A stretch of 64,000 nt of DNA, from contig DS990602.1 of the NCBI GenBank assembly GCA_000155715.1, positions 36,115 to 100,114 on the forward strand. Reading direction: 5' to 3'. Source of the DNA: a gamma proteobacterium HTCC5015. Lineage in GTDB: Bacteria > Pseudomonadota > Gammaproteobacteria > HTCC5015. The position numbers and the translations under genes were made by a program. The notes under the pieces were generated by a model. That model searched no databases. It saw only the letters and a program-made list of their open reading frames with translations, and was not told the DNA's origin. Shown in pieces: positions 23,311-39,970 of the stretch (position 1 is its first letter; each line of letters starts with the position of its first letter).

Positions 23311-24069
23311 ATGAAACAGCATTTCGATTTCGCCCGCTCTCTGCTCGCCTCATCCGCCTCTTTGTGGCGCGGCACCTTCGCCCAAACAAATGGCAGCACG
23401 CCCGTACGCAAGCTCGAACTGTACGATATGGAAAACTGCCCCTATTGCCGCTTGGTACGCGAAGCCATCACGGCGCTGAACCTCGACGTGTTGATTTTGC
23501 CCTGCCCCAAAGGCGGTACCCGCTATCGCCCCAGAGCCGAGGCGCTGGGTGGAAAACAACAATTTCCCCTTTTGATCGATCACAACAGCGGCGTCAAACT
23601 CTATGAATCCGCCGACATCATTCACTATCTGCACAAAACCTACGGCTCGGGCAAAGCACCTCAAGCTTGGCGCATCCACACCATCGACAAGCCCTCGGCT
23701 TTTCTCGCCTCCAGCCTGCGCGGTTTGAGAGGGGTTCGGGTCGACGCCAACCGCCCTGCTCTGCAGCCACTGCACCTGTGGAGTTTTGAATCCAGCCCCT
23801 ATGCGCGCCCCGTTCGCGAGCGTCTGTGCGAACTCGAATTGCCCTATGTCGTGCACAATATTGGCAAAGCTCAATGGCAGGATTTCATGCTGCCCCAACA
23901 GCGCGCGCGCTGGATGCCCGATATGGACTTTAAAAACCCGGCCCGCCGCGCTCTAAAACAAAGAGCGGGGCGCGTCGCCTCTCCTTACTTGGCCGACCCC
24001 AACCGCGGCGAAGAGCTGTTTGAATCCCAAGATATCTTGGCCTATCTCAACCAGCACTACGCCCTTTAA
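23311..24069 (+). CDS. Protein with two tandem GST N-terminal (thioredoxin-fold) domains
   Basis: The 252-residue protein has two glutaredoxin/GST-N-like domains. The first (about 33-112) carries a redox-competent CPYC motif (C43, C46) in LYDMENCPYCRLVREA, and the conserved FPLLID and LYESADIIHYL. The second (about 150-250) opens LWSFESSPYARPVRERL, where Ser replaces both cysteines, and ends ELFESQDILAYL. No GST C-terminal helical domain is present. A glutathione-dependent redox or isomerase role is inferred. The protein lacks a convincing signal peptide and should be cytoplasmic. Confidence 0.82.
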   Translation: MKQHFDFARSLLASSASLWRGTFAQTNGSTPVRKLELYDMENCPYCRLVREAITALNLDVLILPCPKGGTRYRPRAEALGGKQQFPLLIDHNSGVKLYESADIIHYLHKTYGSGKAPQAWRIHTIDKPSAFLASSLRGLRGVRVDANRPALQPLHLWSFESSPYARPVRERLCELELPYVVHNIGKAQWQDFMLPQQRARWMPDMDFKNPARRALKQRAGRVASPYLADPNRGEELFESQDILAYLNQHYAL

Positions 24070-25969: not shown

Positions 25970-26866
25970 CTAGCGTTGAACCCAGCTGTTAACCGACTGA
26001 GCCGACAAAAACTCCTCGGCTTCATTGCCATGAAGCATCGCTAGCGTGGCTAAAAAACCGGCCTGTAAACAATCTGGTGCAGCGACGGTTACCGAGCGAG
26101 GCGCCCGCATCACCGGCCAGCCAGTTCGCGGATTGAGCACATGAGGGTAGCGCACACCGTCGCGTTCGATATAGCGCCGGGCATCGCCACTGGTGGCCAA
26201 GCCACCCTGCTTCAAGGAAATGCCTGCCGCGGCCCCTCCTCCCAGCGATTCCACACCGACCCGCCAGGTCTTTTGTGTACGGGGGGGACGCGTGGCAAAA
26301 AGGTCACCGCCAAAATTGATCAGTGCGGGCAACTCTGCGGCGCGTTCGCGAATCAGGGCGGCAGCGCGATCGACAGCGTATTCCTTGCCAATGCCGCCTA
26401 GGTCGATCTCCATGCCCTCGGGCAGCTTAATCACTCGGCCATCCCAAGCCACCTTGTCCCAAGCGATCAGCGGCAGAGCCGCCTTGACCGCCTTTCGCGA
26501 CGGAACCGAATCACTGCCATCAAAACGCCAGAAACGGCGCAGAACGCCAGAAGTAATATCAAACAGCCCGCCACTGAGCTGAAAAGCCCGATCGGCAAAA
26601 TCGAGCAAAGCCGCCAACTCGTCAGAAACGATGACGGCCTGCCCCCGTGAGTGGTTGATGGCGTAGACCTCGTTGTCGTCGCGATAGCGGCTGAAATCGG
26701 TTTCGATTCTCACCGCTTCATCGCGCACGACTTCCACGAGCCCCTGAACCAGCAGGCGGTCGCGACTTTCAAACAGTACTTCGCAGGGCCCCGCCATGGC
26801 ACTGAACTCCGCCGCCAGACCTAAATCGTGGCGACGAATAATCAATGGCCTTTTTTCAGAAGTCAT
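25970..26866 (-). CDS. apbE: FAD:protein FMN transferase (ApbE family)
   Basis: The 298-residue protein has the ApbE fold: FSAMAGPCEVLFE, FDITSGVLRRFWRF, the IDLGGIGKEYAVDRAA motif, INFGGDLFA, and the metal-site segment YPHVLNPRTGWPV. ApbE transfers FMN from FAD to Ser/Thr of exported proteins, using Mg2+. No cleavable signal peptide is evident at this start, so its compartment needs care; an exported ApbE would normally carry one. It is last in the leftward operon and overlaps the DUF3570 gene by 11 bp. The motif D-S-L-T-G-A-S in the DUF3570 product makes that neighbour a candidate substrate. Confidence 0.9.
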   Translation of the reverse strand: MTSEKRPLIIRRHDLGLAAEFSAMAGPCEVLFESRDRLLVQGLVEVVRDEAVRIETDFSRYRDDNEVYAINHSRGQAVIVSDELAALLDFADRAFQLSGGLFDITSGVLRRFWRFDGSDSVPSRKAVKAALPLIAWDKVAWDGRVIKLPEGMEIDLGGIGKEYAVDRAAALIRERAAELPALINFGGDLFATRPPRTQKTWRVGVESLGGGAAAGISLKQGGLATSGDARRYIERDGVRYPHVLNPRTGWPVMRAPRSVTVAAPDCLQAGFLATLAMLHGNEAEEFLSAQSVNSWVQR

Positions 26867-28151
26867 ACTTGAAGCGTAGCATCACCGCGTCTACTGGCGG
26901 CAGAAGGTCCTGTTTTTTCATCACCCCAAAGGCGTCAGCGGGCGTGTTCGGTGACTGGGTGTAGTACTCCATCGCAAGCGCCCAGGGGTGAGTGCCACTG
27001 CGTCCGTACTCCAGTCCCAAGGTATACGCTGTCATATCTGCCAAGCGGTAGTCGGCACTGGCAAACTCAGTCTGGTCACCCGCGGAAGGCTGCTCGCCGT
27101 CACGATAAAAGGCGCGGTAAAAATCGGCCTCTCCCTGTTGATACAAACGCACATGAGGTTCCCAGTAACTCTGTGCCGATCGGTTAAAGCGATAACGCAC
27201 ATCAAGCGTATGAGAATCGACACCCCAATCGTCGCTCATGAATCGATAGGACAAGTCCAGACTGTTGGCATCAAAAGCTCTTTTGTACTGGGCATAAACC
27301 GTATGTTTGGTGCGTGAGTCGGGGCGGTTCTCATACACGACATCCGCCAGGCCGGTTTGCGCGTCGGCCACCGTGGGACGGCCGTTGTTGTCTACCAGGC
27401 TGAGCACCTTGAACGGGTCGGTCATATAACCGTCGGCTTGACTCAAGCCGTAATTGACGACAAACAAGCTGTTGCGATCGATGACCTGTGTTACCCCCAC
27501 CAGTGCATCGACTGTGGTCTTGTCGTCACTGTCGGTTCGCCGATTGGGGGGATCACCGGCATTTTTCATGGCCGAGAAGGCAATGGGAATTTCCCCTTCG
27601 GGGTTGATGGTGTCTGCGGCCAGTGACAAGCCATAACTTAGCGTGGTGTTGCGCTGGTTGAAGTCGGTACTGAAAGTACTGCTGGCGGACAGCGATGTGT
27701 AATCGTACTCGCTGGACAAGTTGGCCCCGAGGGTCATCCTCGTCATCCGCGACAGCGGCTTTTCCCAGCTCGCATTAAAGGCCACACGGGTATCTCGGAA
27801 GGTATCATCCAGGGGCGTTTCACCAGCATCAGTGACAAAACTGCCATTGCCCGAGGGCCGGGTAAACGTCTGGGCCCGATCCGAAGGCAATGCGCCGTTG
27901 GCCGAGGCGCCTGTAAGTGAATCCAGCGTCAGTTTGAGCGTTAAAGTCTCGTCTGTATCAATGCGTTTGACGCCCTTGAGGATGGGTTCGACGGCAGAAA
28001 CTCGGTCGGGTTCTGAGTAAAACAGTACCGCTGAACTCAGATCCCAGTCACCGACATCCGCTTCGCCGGCAGTGGCTGCCTGAACCGAAGACCCCATAAG
28101 GGCGCAACTGGCGCCGGCCAGTGCCAGGCTTAAATTCTTGTAGGATTTCAT
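26856..28151 (-). CDS. DUF3570 predicted outer-membrane beta-barrel protein
   Basis: The 431-residue protein has a signal peptide (to SSVQA, about residue 25) and many alternating beta strands ending in a terminal Phe (MLRFKYDF), as in outer-membrane barrels. The DUF3570 opening is present: WDLSSAVLFYSEPDRVSAVEPI, then LTLDSLTGASANGA. The sequence D77-S-L-T-G-A-S83 resembles the Dxx(S/T)GA(S/T) site flavinylated by ApbE in other proteins. DUF3570, DUF4266, a thioredoxin and ApbE recur together in bacterial genomes; the function of the set is not established. Confidence 0.85.
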   Translation of the reverse strand: MKSYKNLSLALAGASCALMGSSVQAATAGEADVGDWDLSSAVLFYSEPDRVSAVEPILKGVKRIDTDETLTLKLTLDSLTGASANGALPSDRAQTFTRPSGNGSFVTDAGETPLDDTFRDTRVAFNASWEKPLSRMTRMTLGANLSSEYDYTSLSASSTFSTDFNQRNTTLSYGLSLAADTINPEGEIPIAFSAMKNAGDPPNRRTDSDDKTTVDALVGVTQVIDRNSLFVVNYGLSQADGYMTDPFKVLSLVDNNGRPTVADAQTGLADVVYENRPDSRTKHTVYAQYKRAFDANSLDLSYRFMSDDWGVDSHTLDVRYRFNRSAQSYWEPHVRLYQQGEADFYRAFYRDGEQPSAGDQTEFASADYRLADMTAYTLGLEYGRSGTHPWALAMEYYTQSPNTPADAFGVMKKQDLLPPVDAVMLRFKYDF

Positions 28152-28162
28152 ATCCGTTTACC

Positions 28163-28387
28163 TCAATTACAGCCACAGCCGCCGCCGGCAAAACTGCGGC
28201 CGCCACTGCTGGCTTCTTTACTGAAATAGATGTGGTCATCCAGCGCATTGGTCATGGGGGCGCTGTTGGGTGCCATGTCCGGGCGAGCCAACACGCCACG
28301 CTCCCAGGGCTGAACCCCCAGGCCGCTACAGGCACTCAAAGCCACAGAGATTGCGGCAATGGCGGTTACACGATGGGCGTATTTCAT
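28163..28387 (-). CDS. DUF4266 small lipoprotein with C-terminal Cys-Gly-Cys
   Basis: The 74-residue protein starts at ATG 28387, preceded by AGGAGGT. A signal peptide ends in the lipobox LSAC (C20). The mature part carries the DUF4266 signature PWERGVLARPDM and ends SFAGGGCGCN, so C71 and C73 form a CxC pair at the extreme C-terminus. It is probably anchored in the outer membrane beside the DUF3570 barrel. Its start codon overlaps the stop of the thioredoxin gene by 1 nt (TAATG), so the two are coupled. Function unknown. Confidence 0.85.
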   Translation of the reverse strand: MKYAHRVTAIAAISVALSACSGLGVQPWERGVLARPDMAPNSAPMTNALDDHIYFSKEASSGGRSFAGGGCGCN

Positions 28388-28857
28388 TACTGACCTCCTG
28401 CCAGTGCAGCGTCGACGGTGTGTCGCCACTCACTGGCATCGGATTGACGAAAGCCGATATGGGACGCCAACAACTCGCCCTCGGCGGAATAGAGATAGGC
28501 GCTGGGCATTCCCATCACCTCAAACTCGGGTGGCAAGCTGCCCGCCTGATCAAAGACCACATCAAAGTCGGCTCCATGCTCGTCCAGAAACTGCTCTGCC
28601 TGGCCGCGATTGGTGTCCACATTGATGGCCACGATGGCCAATTCATCTTCGCCATACGCCTGGCGCAAATCATTCATCCAGGGAAAGGACGCTCTGCAGG
28701 GGCCACACCAGGAGGCCCAGAAATCAAGGTAGAGCACCTTGCCGCGATAGTTGTCCAAATCGAAGGACTCGGCGTTTAGCCGGTCCGCCGCGCTGGACAG
28801 GGTGGCGACGGACATCAGGAACGTCGCCAACAGGGTGAATCTGACTTTTTTTGACAT
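28387..28857 (-). CDS. TlpA-like exported thioredoxin
   Basis: The protein is 156 residues from ATG 28857, chosen for GGAGGA about 8 bp upstream. The signal peptide MSKKVRFTLLATFLMSVATL ends near SSA. The thioredoxin domain has FWASWCGPC (C51, C54), AIVAINVDTN and the cis-Pro loop VMGMPSAYLY. WCGPC is the TlpA/ResA-type reductant motif. It is first in the leftward operon with DUF4266, DUF3570 and apbE. DsbD, encoded divergently 130 bp away, is the natural electron donor for such a protein. Confidence 0.9.
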   Translation of the reverse strand: MSKKVRFTLLATFLMSVATLSSAADRLNAESFDLDNYRGKVLYLDFWASWCGPCRASFPWMNDLRQAYGEDELAIVAINVDTNRGQAEQFLDEHGADFDVVFDQAGSLPPEFEVMGMPSAYLYSAEGELLASHIGFRQSDASEWRHTVDAALAGGQ

Positions 28858-28894
28858 GGTTCTTCCTCCGATTTTGCTCATCTTAGGCAGAGCA

Positions 28895-28937
28895 AGGTCA
28901 AACCAGGGTCAAATCATGGCCTTGATTCATTTGACCC
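28895..28937. promoter_or_regulatory. Putative operator: GGTCAAA repeats in the divergent promoter region
   Basis: AGGTCAAA at 28895-28902 and GGGTCAAA at 28906-28913 are direct repeats with an 11-bp period, and TTTGACCC at 28930-28937 is the inverted form. Helical-turn-spaced direct repeats are typical of OmpR-family binding sites. The site lies between the TlpA-like gene and dsbD, whose operon encodes an OmpR-family regulator. Confidence 0.5.
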
Positions 28938-28990
28938 GTGTTTAACCTTCGCCGCCGTAAAGTCGGTCAAAATTGAGCGGAGAAATCACC

Positions 28991-30664
28991 ATGTTGCGTC
29001 TTGTTTTGATCGTATTAATGTTGGCATTCAACCATCAGGCCACCGCGTCGGAGGAGTTCCTGCCACCCGATCAGGCTTTTGCTCTGGAACAGACGAGTCA
29101 GGGCGATCAAACCCAATTGCACTGGGATATTGCCGAGGGTTACTACCTCTATCGCGATCGGATTCATATCTGGGCAGACGGACAGGAGTTAACGGTGGAC
29201 GTTTGGCCAGAAAGTGTCCGCAAAGACGACCCCAACTTCGGCGTGGTCGACGTCTACAAACACGCACTCTCAGTAACCGTCAGGCACTCGCTCGGCAGTC
29301 AAATAAAAGTTCAATACCAAGGTTGTGCCGAAGCCGGACTCTGTTACCCACCACAGACCCGACATTTACAGATCAAAGGCGGAGCTGTGAATTCCGAACC
29401 TGAAGAAGTACCGGTCTCTTCTGCCCAAAGCATTGTTGATGCCCTAGCATCGCGCAGCCCCATTTACACATTGTTACTGTTCCTCGGCATGGGGGTCGTC
29501 ACTGCCTTCTCCGGCTGTTCATACCCGATGTTCCCGATTCTTTCACGCGTCATTATTGGCAATGGCAATGTGAAGGACATTGGCAGGATGCGCGGCTTCA
29601 CTCTGTCACTGGCTTACGTCATTCCCATCGCCACAGTCTATGCCGCCATTGGCGTGGTCGCTGGTCTTCTAGGCAAGAACCTGTCCAGCTGGTTCCAGAC
29701 GCCCTGGGCACTGGCTGCCATCGCCACCATTCTCGTTCTGATGGGCCTGTCCATGATCGGACTGTATGAAATTGGCCTACCCAGCCAACTGCAGTCGCGG
29801 CTCGATCAAATCAGCCGAAAACAAAAAGGCGGCTCCTACACCGGTGCAGCCATCATGGGCTTCATTTCCGCCTTTATCGTCAGCGCCTGTGTCGTTCCTC
29901 CCATGGTCGCCGCCACCACTTTTATTACCCAAAGCGGCAACTGGCTGCTGGGTGCCAGTGCCATGTTTTTCTTTGGTTTTGGCCTGGGCGTTCCCCTGCT
30001 GATGCTCGGCGCCTCGGCCAGTTGGCTTTTGCCCAAAGCCGGCAACTGGATGCTGACGTTGCAAAGGGTTATGGGCTTTTTGCTTTTTACCGCCGCCATC
30101 TGGATTGCCGACCGCTTTTTGCCCGGATGGTTTACGCAAATACTCTGGGCGGGCTTGGCGGCCGGCGCCGGCGTCTTCGTCCTCAAGAACAGCGCCCGTT
30201 CCTTGCACAAATGGCTGGCCCTGGCCCTGTTTCTGTTGTCCGGCATGCTCATGGTCTGGCCAGCCATTCAAAACGGCGGTGGCCACAGCGGCCTTCCCTT
30301 TGAGACCTATGACAGTATGGAGCGATTTGATCAGGTACTGGCGGCAGGCAAAAAACCGGTGATCGTCGATATCTACGCCGACTGGTGTACCGCCTGCCAG
30401 ACCCTCGAACACAAGGTATTGCCAGCGCCTGGAATTCAGCAGAAGCTGGAGCAATTCACACGCATCAAGCTCGACCTGTCTAGCGCCAGCGGTGAAGAGC
30501 AGGCCTTTCTCAAGCGCTACCGAATCCTTGGACCGCCGACTTTCCTGTTCCTAGCACCTAGTGGCGATGAGCTGGAGCACCTGCGCATTACCGGTGAAGT
30601 GGACGCACCGCAACTGTCAAAAACATTGACCCGAGCCATCGGGCCAATTAAGAAAGAACCATGA
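28991..30664 (+). CDS. dsbD: Thiol:disulfide interchange protein DsbD
   Basis: The protein is 557 residues from ATG 28991, with GGAGA 8 bp upstream. The layout is complete: signal peptide, alpha domain with the redox pair C112/C118 (GCAEAGLCYPP), eight-helix membrane domain with the paired cysteines in FSGCSYPMFP and VSACVVPPM, and a C-terminal thioredoxin domain with YADWCTACQTLE. DsbD moves electrons from cytoplasmic thioredoxin to periplasmic DsbC-, DsbE- and TlpA-like proteins. Here it is encoded with a two-component system and opposite a TlpA-like gene, suggesting a dedicated relay. It overlaps the regulator gene by 4 bp. Confidence 0.93.
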   Translation: MLRLVLIVLMLAFNHQATASEEFLPPDQAFALEQTSQGDQTQLHWDIAEGYYLYRDRIHIWADGQELTVDVWPESVRKDDPNFGVVDVYKHALSVTVRHSLGSQIKVQYQGCAEAGLCYPPQTRHLQIKGGAVNSEPEEVPVSSAQSIVDALASRSPIYTLLLFLGMGVVTAFSGCSYPMFPILSRVIIGNGNVKDIGRMRGFTLSLAYVIPIATVYAAIGVVAGLLGKNLSSWFQTPWALAAIATILVLMGLSMIGLYEIGLPSQLQSRLDQISRKQKGGSYTGAAIMGFISAFIVSACVVPPMVAATTFITQSGNWLLGASAMFFFGFGLGVPLLMLGASASWLLPKAGNWMLTLQRVMGFLLFTAAIWIADRFLPGWFTQILWAGLAAGAGVFVLKNSARSLHKWLALALFLLSGMLMVWPAIQNGGGHSGLPFETYDSMERFDQVLAAGKKPVIVDIYADWCTACQTLEHKVLPAPGIQQKLEQFTRIKLDLSSASGEEQAFLKRYRILGPPTFLFLAPSGDELEHLRITGEVDAPQLSKTLTRAIGPIKKEP

Positions 30665-31329
30665 GAGTACTGATCGTTGAAGACAATACCGACCTGTGCG
30701 CCAGTCTGGTGGATTACCTTCAGGCCCAGGGACACACAGTGGACTGCTGTTACAGCGGTACTGCAGCGGTGGAAATCTGCCGCGAACAATCGTTTGATGT
30801 GATTGTACTCGACCTCAACCTGCCCCGACTGAACGGTCTGGAAGTCAGTAAAATTCTGCGTCGGGAACTGAATCTGACGACGCCGATACTGATGTTGACC
30901 GCTCGCAGTGACATTGAGGACAAGGTGGCCGGCTTTGAAGCCGGTGCCGATGACTATCTGGTGAAACCTTTCAGCATGGTAGAGCTCAATGCGCGTATCA
31001 AGGCCCTGAGTCTAAGACGACACATCAACGAACAGGAGCTCCGCGTGGGCAAGCTGGTCTACCGCCCCCAGTCACAGGTAACCCTGCGAGACAATCAAAC
31101 CATTGATCTCAATCAGTCCTGCCGAAAGTTGTTACACAAGCTGATGCAGAAATCTCCCGAAGTCGTCAGCCGATCGGAGCTTGAAGCGGTACTATGGGGA
31201 GACGAGCCACCCGAGGGAGAGGTATTGAAAGCTCACATCCATATGCTGCGCCAGAAACTGGATGGCCCCTTCGACAACAAAATGATCCGGACTGTTCGCG
31301 GTTCAGGTTACCAGTTGGTGGCAACCTGA
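30661..31329 (+). CDS. OmpR-family response regulator
   Basis: The 222-residue protein has a receiver domain (E7, D8, phospho-acceptor D51 in VLDLNLP, the LTAR switch and K in LVKPFS) and a winged-helix DNA-binding domain ending VRGSGYQLVAT. It should be phosphorylated by the histidine kinase encoded immediately downstream and probably acts on the divergent dsbD / tlpA-like promoters, where helical-turn-spaced GGTCAAA repeats are found. The start overlaps the dsbD stop (ATGA), so thiol transport and its regulator are translationally linked. Confidence 0.92.
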   Translation: MRVLIVEDNTDLCASLVDYLQAQGHTVDCCYSGTAAVEICREQSFDVIVLDLNLPRLNGLEVSKILRRELNLTTPILMLTARSDIEDKVAGFEAGADDYLVKPFSMVELNARIKALSLRRHINEQELRVGKLVYRPQSQVTLRDNQTIDLNQSCRKLLHKLMQKSPEVVSRSELEAVLWGDEPPEGEVLKAHIHMLRQKLDGPFDNKMIRTVRGSGYQLVAT

Positions 31330-32583
31330 ATGTCTGTCCGCCAAAGAATTCTGCTGACATTACTGACTTTCAGTACGGCCAGCGTGCTGGTATTCGCCAG
31401 TGCGGTCCTGCTCTCCACGGACCACTTGGAATACCGGGTCATCGAAGCCACCTACAAAAACGAGATGAGGCACATCCAGCAGCAGTTGGCGGGGGATGAT
31501 CCCGTCAGTCTGCCCCAAAGTACTCAGATAAAAGCGTTTTGGGGCATGTCCGGCCACGTGCCTGCCGATTTTATTCCGTTCGGCCTCGGCAGCTATCACG
31601 ACATCCCCCACCAGGGGCACTACTACCACCTCTATGTCGAGCCGCTGAATGGCGACCTGCTTTACACCGCCATCAATATTGACCGCATTGAAGTATTTGA
31701 AGAAACACTGGCGGCCATCGTTCTGATGATCGGCGTCGCCATGCTGATCAGTACTATCTGGATCAGTTGGGTATTGACCCGCTATGTCATTCGACCGGTC
31801 AGCGCACTGGCCAGTGATATCGAAACACTAAAACCCGGGGCGCGCTCACTGCCGGAACGGCAGTACGACCCCGACCTCAGCGTCATTGAAGGCGCCATCA
31901 ACGAATACGTGTCCCGCATTGATGACTACCTGACTCGGGAAAAACAATTTTCCGGCATGGCCAGCCATGAACTGCGCACGCCGGTAGCCACTATCGTCTC
32001 TACCATTGAAACTCTGCTTCAGCAGATGCCAACGGATCAACTCGACGACGCTAACCGAGAGCGTCTGAAGAGACTCGAACGGGCCTCCCGCGACATCAAC
32101 TACATCAGCGAATCGCTGCTCAGCCTGGTCAAAAATCAAAAGCCGCACTCGGGCGAAATGGCTTACCGGATGTCAGACCCACTGAGCGAGCTGGTGGAGG
32201 ACTACCGACACTTTCTCCTGGGCTCTAACAACCAGCTTGAAATGTTGATCGAGCGTGACATGCATACCCGGGTCGACCCGGAGCTGCTGCGAATCATCGT
32301 GGGTAATTTGTTGAGAAACTCACTGCAACATGGCCAGTCAATTGTAGTTCGCTTAGTCATTGATGCGCCGAATTTAATTATCAGTGACACCGGCGAAGGA
32401 CTGAGCACTGACATACAAGCTTGGCTCGAAGACCCCGATCACAACCAACTCCCCGACCGCGATATCGGCCTTGGCTTGTATATTGTTCGCACGCTGGTCG
32501 ACCGCCTAGGCTGGACACTATCTGTTGAACCTAATAGAGGCGAGGGGGCTCAATTTACAATCAATACGCAACACAGCACCTAA
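31330..32583 (+). CDS. Membrane sensor histidine kinase
   Basis: The 417-residue kinase has two membrane helices (about 8-28 and 127-149) around a periplasmic sensor loop of about 100 residues, a HAMP-like linker, an H-box with H213 (FSGMASHELRTPVA), and an ATPase domain with IIVGNLLRNSLQHG, DTGEGLS and GLGLYIVRTL. The sensor loop is rich in His and Tyr (YHDIPHQGHYYHLYVE) and has no Cys, so direct thiol sensing is unlikely while metal binding is conceivable. The start codon follows the regulator stop directly. Confidence 0.92.
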   Translation: MSVRQRILLTLLTFSTASVLVFASAVLLSTDHLEYRVIEATYKNEMRHIQQQLAGDDPVSLPQSTQIKAFWGMSGHVPADFIPFGLGSYHDIPHQGHYYHLYVEPLNGDLLYTAINIDRIEVFEETLAAIVLMIGVAMLISTIWISWVLTRYVIRPVSALASDIETLKPGARSLPERQYDPDLSVIEGAINEYVSRIDDYLTREKQFSGMASHELRTPVATIVSTIETLLQQMPTDQLDDANRERLKRLERASRDINYISESLLSLVKNQKPHSGEMAYRMSDPLSELVEDYRHFLLGSNNQLEMLIERDMHTRVDPELLRIIVGNLLRNSLQHGQSIVVRLVIDAPNLIISDTGEGLSTDIQAWLEDPDHNQLPDRDIGLGLYIVRTLVDRLGWTLSVEPNRGEGAQFTINTQHST

Positions 32584-36302: not shown

Positions 36303-37355
36303 CTAACAGCAAGCTCCCTCGCTCTGTTCTCCAACACTCTCACTGGAGCGAAATGGCAGGGACTCTCCACACCCCTCAAACAAACCATAGTGATACTTGA
36401 AATCACCAACAAACTCGAAGTGACTGGCAAAGCGGCTGTCCTGAAGCATGCGGAAGGTGTTGCCGCACACAGGAAACACCTGGCCACGCTCAATCGCGTG
36501 GTGAGCATCTAGATCAAAGCGGTGGGCGTGGCCCGGCACAGAGCCTCGGTAGATCACCGCCTGCCCATGGTCCTCGCAGGCGTCTTCAAGCTCGCCAATA
36601 TTGAACAACCGATAAGTCGCCGAGTAAAAGCGGATATTGCCGGTTCGCTCGGCCAGCGCTGGGTCGGTCACTGCTAGTGGTCGATCCTCAACTAAGCGCG
36701 GGTCGTTAAAGCCCGCTGCACGGGACAAGCGGATAAAGTCTTTCCAGTAGAGGGCACCACCTAGGCACTCGCCATAGAGCACCGGGTCGTTGGCCACCGA
36801 CTCGGGAATGCGGCGGTCGGCGTAGACATCGGAAAAGTAGAACTCGCCGCCGGGCTTGAGCAGTTTCTTAACGCCCGCCAGCACCGCAGGCTTGTCGGGG
36901 GACAGATTGATAACGCAGTTGGACACCACCACATCAAACGCGCCCTCCTCCAGATCCAGCTCATCGAGCTTTTCGATGTACCCCTTGAGGAAGCGCACAT
37001 TGTCGTAGCCGAATTGATCGGCGTGATAGCCACGGTGAGCCTCGGCCACGGCTAGTTGCTCGTCGGTCATATCCACACCCACCACTTCGCCCCTCGGCCC
37101 CACCAGCTGAGCCAGTGCGTAGACATCTCGGCCACTGCCGCAGCCCAGATCCAGCACTCGGCAGCCCTCTAGCAGCTCGGGGCACACCAGACCGCAGCCG
37201 TAGTAGCGGGACAATACCTCGCCGTGAATGTTGGCTAGCAGTGGCTTGAGCCAATCGGGCACCGCGCTGGCGTCGCAGCAGGCGTCGGTTTTCAGATCAT
37301 CGCTACTCTGCAGTGTTTTGCCGTAGTAGTCCTGAACAATATCGTGTGTCGACAT
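36303..37355 (-). CDS. arsM: Arsenite methyltransferase ArsM-like
   Basis: The 350-residue protein has a Rossmann SAM-binding domain (VLDLGCGSGRDVYALA, about 67-81; GVDMT) followed by a C-terminal domain of about 130 residues typical of ArsM. Cysteines C147 (VSNCVINLSPDK) and C197 (YGECLGGALYW) are 50 residues apart, as are the arsenic-binding cysteines of studied ArsM proteins. An N-terminal ACC (C26, C27) and a C-terminal ACC give further thiols. It methylates As(III) to mono- and dimethylarsenicals. AAAGGA precedes the ATG. It is last in a leftward operon with arsS, supporting an arsenosugar role. Confidence 0.88.
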   Translation of the reverse strand: MSTHDIVQDYYGKTLQSSDDLKTDACCDASAVPDWLKPLLANIHGEVLSRYYGCGLVCPELLEGCRVLDLGCGSGRDVYALAQLVGPRGEVVGVDMTDEQLAVAEAHRGYHADQFGYDNVRFLKGYIEKLDELDLEEGAFDVVVSNCVINLSPDKPAVLAGVKKLLKPGGEFYFSDVYADRRIPESVANDPVLYGECLGGALYWKDFIRLSRAAGFNDPRLVEDRPLAVTDPALAERTGNIRFYSATYRLFNIGELEDACEDHGQAVIYRGSVPGHAHRFDLDAHHAIERGQVFPVCGNTFRMLQDSRFASHFEFVGDFKYHYGLFEGCGESLPFRSSESVGEQSEGACC

Positions 37356-37813: not shown

Positions 37814-39970
37814 TCAGGCGCCGCCGCGGCGCCACTGGTGATAGCGGGCTAAGCAACGCAGTACGCCCTCCGGCTTGTGGGCCTGTTTCCACTGGCCGGC
37901 GGCGAACTTATTGGCTTCGGCCAGCGTCGGGTAGGTGTGAATCGTCGAGAGTATCTTGTTCAGCCCCAGCCCCCAGCGCATGGCAAAAACGAACTCCGCC
38001 AACAATTCGCCGGCGTGGGCACCGACGATAGTAGCGCCTAAAATACGGTCTTTGCCCGGTGGGGTCAGCACTTTGACGAAGCCCTTGGTATCGCTCTCGG
38101 CGATAGCGCGGTCCAGATCGTCCAGTTCATAGCGCGTGACTTCGAACGCCACGCCCTGCTCTATCGCTTCCTGCTCACTCAAGCCCACTCGGGCCACTTC
38201 GGGATCGACGAATGTCGTCCAGGGAATCACACTGTAGTCCACTTTGAATTTTTTGAACGAGCCAAACAAAGCGTTCACCGCCGCATACCAAGCCTGGTGA
38301 GCGGCGGTGTGCGTAAATTGATAAGGGCCGGCCACGTCGCCCGCAGCAAAAATATTGGGATACAACGTTTCCAGATACTCGTTAGTGACCACGGTTCGAT
38401 CGGTTTCAATCCCCAAGGCCTCTAGGCCGTAACCGGTGAGGCGCGGGGCGCGGCCCACGGCACAGAGCAATTCGTCAAAGGCAATCGCCTCCTCGCGACC
38501 GTCGACTTCCACGATCAGTCGCTTCTCGTCGCCTTCGACCTCGCAGCGCAGGGCCTTGTGGCCGGTGAGGACGCGCACGCCCTCCCCGCTCAACTCGTGT
38601 TCAACCAGCTCGGACACCTCGGCGTCCTCCCGAGCCATCAGGCGCTCACCCATTTCCACCTGAATCACCTCACTGCCAAGTCGAGCAAAGGCTTGAGACA
38701 ACTCACAGCCAATAGGGCCACCGCCCAGAATCAGCAAGCGACGCGGCGGCGCCTCTAGGGCAGCGAAGCGCTCCCACAGGGTGTCGGACGTCACATAACC
38801 GACCTCTTCCAGTCCCGGCAGCGGCGGCACAAAAGGGCTGGCGCCGGCGGCAATCACGATACTGCGGGTGGTCAGGCGCTGTGTTTCACCGTCTTCTTTC
38901 GCAATCTCAACCGTCCAGGGATCGACAAGGGTGGCGTAGCCCTGCTGCACATCAACCCCGAGCTCCTCATAGCGCTCCACACTATCGTGGGGCTCGATGT
39001 CGCGAATAACCGATTGCACTCGGTCCATGATGGCCTTGAAGGAGACGCTGGGCTCAGCGGCTTCTAGCCCGTAGCGCTCGGCGTGGCGCATCTGGTGAGC
39101 CAGCTTGGCGCTTTTGATCAGAGCCTTGCTGGGCACACAGCCATAGTTGAGGCAATCGCCGCCCATTTTATGCGCCTCCACCAGCGTCACTTCAGCTTTG
39201 ACCGCAGCGGCGATATAGGCGCTGACAAGCCCACCCGCACCGGCGCCGATCACCACCATATTGCGATCAAACTGCTTCGGCTTTTGCCAACCGCGGTAAG
39301 CCTTGCGGCGGCGGAAGAAAGCGACAATGGCCTTGGCAATCCAAGGAAAAATACCCAGAAGAGCAAAAGAGAGAATCAGTTCCGGCGAGAGAATGCCCGA
39401 AGCGCTCTCGAGTTGGCCGAGCTGGGTGCCTGCATTCACATAGACCACCGTACCGGCGAACATGCCAAGCTGGCTGACCGCGTAAAACGTCACAGCCCGC
39501 ATAGGCGTCAGCCCCATCGCCAGATTGATGACAAAAAATGGAAAGGCGGGAATCAAGCGCAGAGTAAACAGATAAAAGGCACCGTCGCGTTCGATGCCTT
39601 GGTTAATCGCTTTGAGCCGATCGCCAAAGCGCTGCTGCACCGTATCGCCAAAGACATAGCGGGCCGAGAGAAAAGCCAGCGTAGCGCCGATGGAGGAGGC
39701 AAAAGACACCAGCACCGTGCCCCACAACAAGCCGAACAAAGCCCCAGCGGCCAGCGTCATGATGGCTGCGCCGGGCAGTGACGCCGCCGTCACCAACACA
39801 TAGGCGACAAAGAATCCCCCCAGCACCAGCCAAGGGGATTCCTGACGCCACAGCGCCACCTCGTCCAGGCCCGATTTAAGCCCGGCAAAGGTCAGATGCT
39901 GGTGCCCCCCCAAGGCAAAGAACGCCACGGCAACGGTGGCAATTAGGGCAATGATAATCAGCTTTTTCAC
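37814..39970 (-). CDS. VTT (TVP38/TMEM64-DedA) membrane domain fused to a pyridine nucleotide-disulfide oxidoreductase
   Basis: The 718-residue protein starts at GTG 39970 (AGGA 7 bp upstream). Residues 1-220 form a multi-helix VTT domain (SLPGAAIMTLAAGALFG, LRLIPAFPFFVINL). Residues 235-710 are a mercuric-reductase/lipoamide-dehydrogenase-like flavoenzyme with the FAD motif GAGAGG (242-247), redox cysteines C273 and C278 (GGDCLNYGCVPSK), a second NADH-binding GGGPIGCE and the C-terminal His-Glu dyad in HTYPTLAE. It should pass electrons from NAD(P)H to a thiol or metal substrate at the inner membrane. Such fusions occur elsewhere; the substrate is unknown. It sits between arsS and the small membrane protein. 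Confidence 0.88.
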   Translation of the reverse strand: MKKLIIIALIATVAVAFFALGGHQHLTFAGLKSGLDEVALWRQESPWLVLGGFFVAYVLVTAASLPGAAIMTLAAGALFGLLWGTVLVSFASSIGATLAFLSARYVFGDTVQQRFGDRLKAINQGIERDGAFYLFTLRLIPAFPFFVINLAMGLTPMRAVTFYAVSQLGMFAGTVVYVNAGTQLGQLESASGILSPELILSFALLGIFPWIAKAIVAFFRRRKAYRGWQKPKQFDRNMVVIGAGAGGLVSAYIAAAVKAEVTLVEAHKMGGDCLNYGCVPSKALIKSAKLAHQMRHAERYGLEAAEPSVSFKAIMDRVQSVIRDIEPHDSVERYEELGVDVQQGYATLVDPWTVEIAKEDGETQRLTTRSIVIAAGASPFVPPLPGLEEVGYVTSDTLWERFAALEAPPRRLLILGGGPIGCELSQAFARLGSEVIQVEMGERLMAREDAEVSELVEHELSGEGVRVLTGHKALRCEVEGDEKRLIVEVDGREEAIAFDELLCAVGRAPRLTGYGLEALGIETDRTVVTNEYLETLYPNIFAAGDVAGPYQFTHTAAHQAWYAAVNALFGSFKKFKVDYSVIPWTTFVDPEVARVGLSEQEAIEQGVAFEVTRYELDDLDRAIAESDTKGFVKVLTPPGKDRILGATIVGAHAGELLAEFVFAMRWGLGLNKILSTIHTYPTLAEANKFAAGQWKQAHKPEGVLRCLARYHQWRRGGA

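Follow-up and report, generated by a model that had tools for sequence, protein, structure and literature searches.

What does a cluster of thiol-disulfide and flavin-transfer genes do in gamma proteobacterium HTCC5015, and could its products carry electrons from the cytoplasm to the outer membrane? In the window, i.e., the whole 64,000-nt stretch of DNA analysed here, a DUF4266 protein, a WCGPC thioredoxin of the TlpA type and a full DsbD are encoded side by side, flanked by genes for a DUF3570 protein, an ApbE and a two-component system. Pfam matches and the sequence itself bear out this part of the original prediction, the DUF4266 tail reading Cys-Gly-Cys-Asn. The genes had also been assigned to one unit. 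A single operon is rejected, since tlpA-DUF4266-DUF3570-apbE on the minus strand diverges from dsbD-response regulator-histidine kinase on the plus strand across a common intergenic region of about 110 bp. Within both units, start and stop codons overlap or almost do so. Elsewhere in the window, positions 23311–24069 encode a protein with two tandem glutathione S-transferase N-terminal (glutaredoxin-like) domains, and a methyltransferase gene with Cys-rich ends, arsenite methyltransferase-like by eye only (36303–37355), lies near a VTT-domain/pyridine nucleotide-disulphide oxidoreductase fusion (37814–39970).

On the thiol side, dsbD (28991–30664, plus strand; likely start ATG 28991) encodes the three domains DsbD_N, DsbD_TM (PF02683, E = 4e-72) and thioredoxin in Pfam, and scores above the NCBIfam DsbD cut-off. 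The six expected cysteines are kept, and GCAEAGLC, SGC/SAC and WCTAC read as one Cys pair per domain. The TlpA-type periplasmic thioredoxin (28387–28881, minus strand) matches the Redoxin, AhpC-TSA and Thioredoxin families, and its CxxC is conserved across homologues; PF13899 is matched only by the C-terminal domain of DsbD. The DUF4266 mini-lipoprotein (28163–28387, minus strand; 74 aa) matches PF14086 at 8e-23 with all 50 positions covered. It has a lipobox, LSAC-S (residues 17–21), in which Cys20 is invariant in 48 homologues, and residue +2 is not Asp; it is thus predicted to be an outer-membrane lipoprotein anchored by lipid at Cys20. Its C-terminal Cys-Gly-Cys-Asn (28166–28177, minus strand) is conserved in homologues, as the original prediction had supposed: GCGC[N/Y] ends 33 of the 33 intact genes found by profile, where the profile spans the tail itself but a search begun from DUF3570 yields the same genomes. 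The 34th DUF4266 gene (L051) lacks the tail, being out of frame past a run of seven G, and the 80 named loci were excluded from this count, having been picked with GGGCGCN. No enzyme that might modify the tail peptide is a conserved neighbour at the relatives' loci. The DUF4266 structure model is of low confidence and leaves the tail disordered; a disordered, lipid-anchored tail would suit reaching into a barrel.

The presumed partner, DUF3570 (26856–28151, minus strand; PF12094, 2e-129), is predicted to be an outer-membrane beta-barrel. An AlphaFold2 model built with 53 sequences (mean pLDDT 90.6) has 16 strands, counted from its strand list, and its PDB matches are outer-membrane channels. 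Every long loop comes after an odd-numbered strand, and even-numbered strands are followed by short turns only. In outer-membrane barrels, the termini and short turns are usually periplasmic. The flavinylation motif D-S-L-T-G-A-S (residues 77–83; 27903–27923, minus strand), with Ser83 as predicted FMN acceptor, sits at the end of strand 3 in the model, and by the usual rule it would therefore face the outer or lumen side, where the long loops are. Unlike ordinary surface loops, three of these loops are as conserved as the strands or more so (0.70, 0.71 and 0.66 vs. 0.59). The mature protein of the window contains no cysteine, and none is conserved across 53 homologues, so a group other than cysteine must be its redox centre and a thiol donor could pass electrons only to a bound cofactor. 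For the same reason, we rejected the idea that the thiol relay serves disulfides of the barrel. Asp77 and Gly81 are invariant in the 53 homologues; the published rule for the flavinylation motif is D-x-x-[ST]-G-A-[ST] (PMC12052999). The motif is intact once in the window protein, and the second motif position reads SGNG. At one related locus (L048, 10173, plus strand), the DUF3570 domain lies in a 912-aa open frame, about twice the usual length.

The putative flavinylating enzyme, ApbE (FAD:protein FMN transferase; 25970–26866, minus strand; 298 aa; PF02424, 3e-63), is unusual. Its N-terminus lacks the hydrophobic stretch of a signal peptide, also when the five extra in-frame residues upstream in the 303-aa open frame are considered. 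By a simple measure, 1 of 76 normal-length ApbEs of such modules has a hydrophobic N-terminus, compared with 90 of 93 DUF4266 and 76 of 83 TlpA proteins; the measure is weaker for DUF3570 (48/80). An Asp-Ser-His triad has been proposed for FmnB (301/257/273) and the V. cholerae enzyme (285/241/257; PMC12052999). In an alignment with FmnB, the window ApbE keeps Ser226 and His242 and carries Gly270 (codon 26057–26059) in place of the Asp; module ApbEs have Gly in 90/93, Ser in 92/93 and His in 93/93 cases at these positions. By alignment, Gly270 would correspond to D283 of E. coli ApbE, which binds metal in the crystallised enzyme's structure (PMC4767422). The window protein thus belongs to the family of the canonical ApbE/Ftp enzymes of V. 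cholerae, E. coli, T. pallidum and L. monocytogenes (FmnB) and shares their Ser and His, whereas it differs from them in lacking a Sec/lipoprotein signal, in the exchange of Asp285 (V. cholerae)/Asp301 (FmnB) for Gly and in two extra conserved cysteines, Cys28 and Cys266, found in about 90% of module ApbEs. The ApbE of the Klebsiella fumarate reductase likewise has no signal peptide, but its target is cytoplasmic (PMC12052999), whereas the presumed target of the window ApbE ends up in the outer membrane. The genome encodes a second, canonical lipoprotein ApbE elsewhere. Either this second ApbE carries out the flavinylation, or the module ApbE does so before export and by a different mode of action. 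We consider it unlikely, taken jointly, that DUF3570-linked ApbEs are a separate lineage of FMN transferases, cytosolic and without the Asp, which act on the barrel precursor before Sec export, and that the folded barrel holds FMN in or above its lumen, to be reduced by the Cys-Gly-Cys tail of the lipoprotein threaded in from below. If true, this combination would let electrons cross the outer membrane from thiol to flavin without any haem.

Survey of other genomes confirmed the expected co-occurrence. Of 398 genomes surveyed from the phylum, 29 have DUF4266 above cut-off and precisely these 29 have DUF3570, neither being found alone above cut-off; one further DUF4266 match (G021) is below cut-off and without a cluster. 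The 33 loci found with the DUF4266 profile contain DUF3570 in 33, TlpA in 30, ApbE in 21, DsbD in 6 and a nearby response regulator in 8 cases, and the 80 named loci in 80, 73, 69, 10 and 28 cases, respectively, with some of the contigs incomplete. The order TlpA-DUF4266-DUF3570 is kept with few exceptions across more than 100 loci and, together with the perfect pairing in 398 genomes, rejects chance proximity. DUF4266 and DUF3570 are single-copy in the HTCC5015 genome, whereas DsbD (by DsbD_TM) and ApbE are each present twice, the copies in the window being dedicated second copies. Given the low number of linked dsbD genes, the housekeeping DsbD must usually serve the module.

The seven-gene divergent layout of the window is also found in two Marinomonas species (L143 and L144; L060 is apparently the same contig as L144), and Acinetobacter sp. 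(L152), L111 and L119 show variants that combine DsbD with a two-component system. The module of Colwellia, Glaciecola and others is next to a block encoding response regulator, histidine kinase, cupredoxin, an FTR1-like protein and a 240-aa protein, and cupredoxin and FTR1-like genes adjoin the module in about a dozen loci. Pfam identifies the cupredoxin clearly; the permease-like protein passes as FTR1 in 1 of 11 members (7e-17). Its RExxE motif is lost in most and retained in L130, and the conserved 240-aa protein has no Pfam match. These three genes either separate the two-component system from the module or flank the module (L036, L058, L084, L100, L118, L121, L129, L130, L136). The HTCC5015 genome has no FTR1 gene. 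Another class of nine loci (L035, L038, L041, L042, L055, L056, L057, L062, L066) keeps TlpA-DUF4266-DUF3570 without an adjacent ApbE, within a large different block with SH3, small barrel, TPR and ExbB/ExbD-like genes and a gene for an HZS_alpha-domain protein. Three of these loci have an intact flavin motif; in the other six it is degenerate (S[S/N]AS). As TlpA, DUF4266 and the barrel persist there with some motifs degenerate, the flavin may not be essential in the module. A search for plasmid context returned just three distant Vibrio matches with no annotation under them.

The module had been called poorly described. Its core was in fact published by Méheust et al. (2021, eLife; PMC8238504), who reported 285 DsbD clusters, 227 with DUF3570 and 221 with DUF4266, noted the conserved C-terminal CxC of DUF4266 with possible redox cycling, and proposed a hybrid thioredoxin/flavin system fed by DsbD; the notion of an undescribed module is thus rejected. 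The same study demonstrated ApbE-dependent flavinylation of one distant DUF3570 homologue, that of Chlorobium luteolum, and found VIT1 in 25 clusters (PMC8238504). The window shares with these systems the same five genes, with DsbD_TM present, ApbE and DUF3570 adjacent and DUF4266 ending in CxC, and is a real, complete copy of a system already described in outline. It differs in having one canonical [S/T]GA[S/T] motif in DUF3570 instead of two, a TlpA-type thioredoxin instead of a PF13899 protein, and an ApbE without signal peptide and triad Asp. The main text of PMC8238504 does not mention an associated two-component system, and a literature search on either DUF name, the regulator or an outer-membrane flavin barrel returned nothing beyond this study. 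New here are the two-component system with its box, the 16-strand cysteine-free barrel model, the unusual ApbE and the cupredoxin/FTR1-like neighbours.

The response regulator (30661–31329, plus strand) is of the OmpR/PhoB type (Response_reg and Trans_reg_C), and the sensor histidine kinase (31330–32583, plus strand; HisKA and HATPase_c) has a periplasmic sensor segment. A periplasmic His cluster (YHDIPHQGHYYH) in this kinase is a possible metal-binding site; relatives do not conserve the sensor domain, and a single orthologous sensor kinase at all loci is not supported. Among relatives, a TTAA-N7-TTAA tandem, typically CTTAAG-N5-CTTAAG and usually about 60 nt upstream of tlpA, is present in 28 of 38 loci with a nearby response regulator, whereas shuffled sequences predict about 1.4, and the background in other 341-nt stretches or upstream regions of the same loci is 3–5%. 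Loci without a linked response regulator have it in 13 of 65 cases. This tandem has the geometry of a PmrA box. Seven of eight regulators of relatives score best against PmrA or QseB models, PmrA ranks second for the eighth, and none of the scores reaches an equivalog cut-off; that a two-component system of the PmrA/QseB type repeatedly adjoins the module is a new result of this analysis. In contrast to these PmrAB/QseBC-like systems, the window regulator scores best against other models, and the TTAA-N7-TTAA box is absent from the window. Instead, the shared promoter region of 110 bp contains GGTCAAA-N4-GGTCAAA (28894–28914, plus strand; 11-bp period, found by repeat search) and an inverted right half, GGTTAAA-N4-GGTCAAA (28929–28949, minus strand), which form a 21-nt inverted repeat with 86% complementarity. 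The pattern GGTYAAA-N4-GGTCAAA was derived from these copies, whose presence is therefore no test; the 2.6 Mb genome contains it exactly two times, in both cases between tlpA and dsbD, and the lack of further copies suggests a regulon with a single site. We infer that the adjacent response regulator binds this predicted operator (28894–28949). The GGTCAAA boxes were not found in Marinomonas intergenic regions. The claim that the module has its own two-component system is thus strengthened by an operator found nowhere else in the genome, although the sensor differs in relatives.

Our preferred reading, which we hold to be about 55% probable, is a relay spanning the periplasm, made first of thiols and then of a flavin. 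DsbD would take electrons from cytoplasmic thioredoxin and pass them over the inner membrane to the TlpA-type thioredoxin, which would reduce the C-terminal Cys-x-Cys of DUF4266. The flexible DUF4266 tail would then reduce FMN attached by ApbE to Ser83 of DUF3570, and from the long-loop (outer) face or the lumen of the barrel the electrons would reach an external acceptor, most plausibly ferric iron. The contacts of DUF4266 with TlpA and with DUF3570 are putative steps in this scheme. The dedicated two-component system would switch both divergent operons via the common operator. The pairing of DUF4266 with DUF3570, the invariant CGC tail, the cysteine-free barrel, the flavinylation motif, the adjacency of apbE, the dedicated second DsbD and ApbE, the seven-gene layout in Marinomonas and the published DUF3570 flavinylation (PMC8238504) all support the relay. 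Counting against it are the few loci with linked DsbD (6/33 and 10/80), the class of loci that retains TlpA, DUF4266 and the barrel with no ApbE next to them, the window ApbE without signal peptide and triad Asp, and the lack of FTR1 in the genome. Iron is the favoured destination by neighbourhood only, namely the cupredoxin and FTR1-like genes of relatives and the published VIT1 clusters. Electron movement from cytoplasm to outer membrane, as proposed in the original prediction, is thus the best reading and matches the published model, but the prediction missed the terminal carrier, probably an FMN in covalent linkage to the DUF3570 barrel. Likewise, the FMN transferase named there is present, but in the relay it is no side component: ApbE would be the enzyme that flavinylates DUF3570.

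The module could possibly mature a metal site instead. The CGC tail would then bind Cu(I)/Fe(II), with DsbD and TlpA keeping it reduced, and would load or gate the barrel for maturation or for the passage of metal; the flavin would be an accessory. An invariant, short C-terminal CxC suits metal binding, cupredoxin and FTR1-like genes adjoin the module in relatives, and some relatives keep the tail without a local ApbE and with a degenerate flavin motif. Most loci nevertheless have apbE and an intact motif, flavinylation has been shown for one DUF3570 (PMC8238504) and this genome has no FTR1 gene, so that we regard metal handling as doubtful.

Quite unlikely, in our estimate, is a respiratory or detoxifying reductase in which an identical relay delivers electrons from the barrel flavin not to iron but to some other external acceptor, organic or oxidant. 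The anatomy would be the same, and the window itself carries no iron link; however, no acceptor enzyme is conserved next to the module. Thiol-disulfide exchange is the usual role of DsbD and TlpA-type proteins, going by NCBIfam names, and DsbD-TlpA-DUF4266 might accordingly repair or isomerise disulfides of envelope proteins, with DUF3570 as client or partner barrel. DUF3570 offers no cysteines for repair, however, and its obligate pairing with DUF4266, together with ApbE, points to a single dedicated path, which makes such quality control very unlikely.

Three features open the published proposal to direct tests: the perfect DUF4266/DUF3570 pairing, the genome-unique operator and the unusual ApbE. 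The signal that induces the module, and hence its function, could be approached through the PmrA/QseB-type regulators of relatives. Should electrons reach the outer membrane in this way without haem, cells would have another option besides conduits built from multihaem cytochromes.
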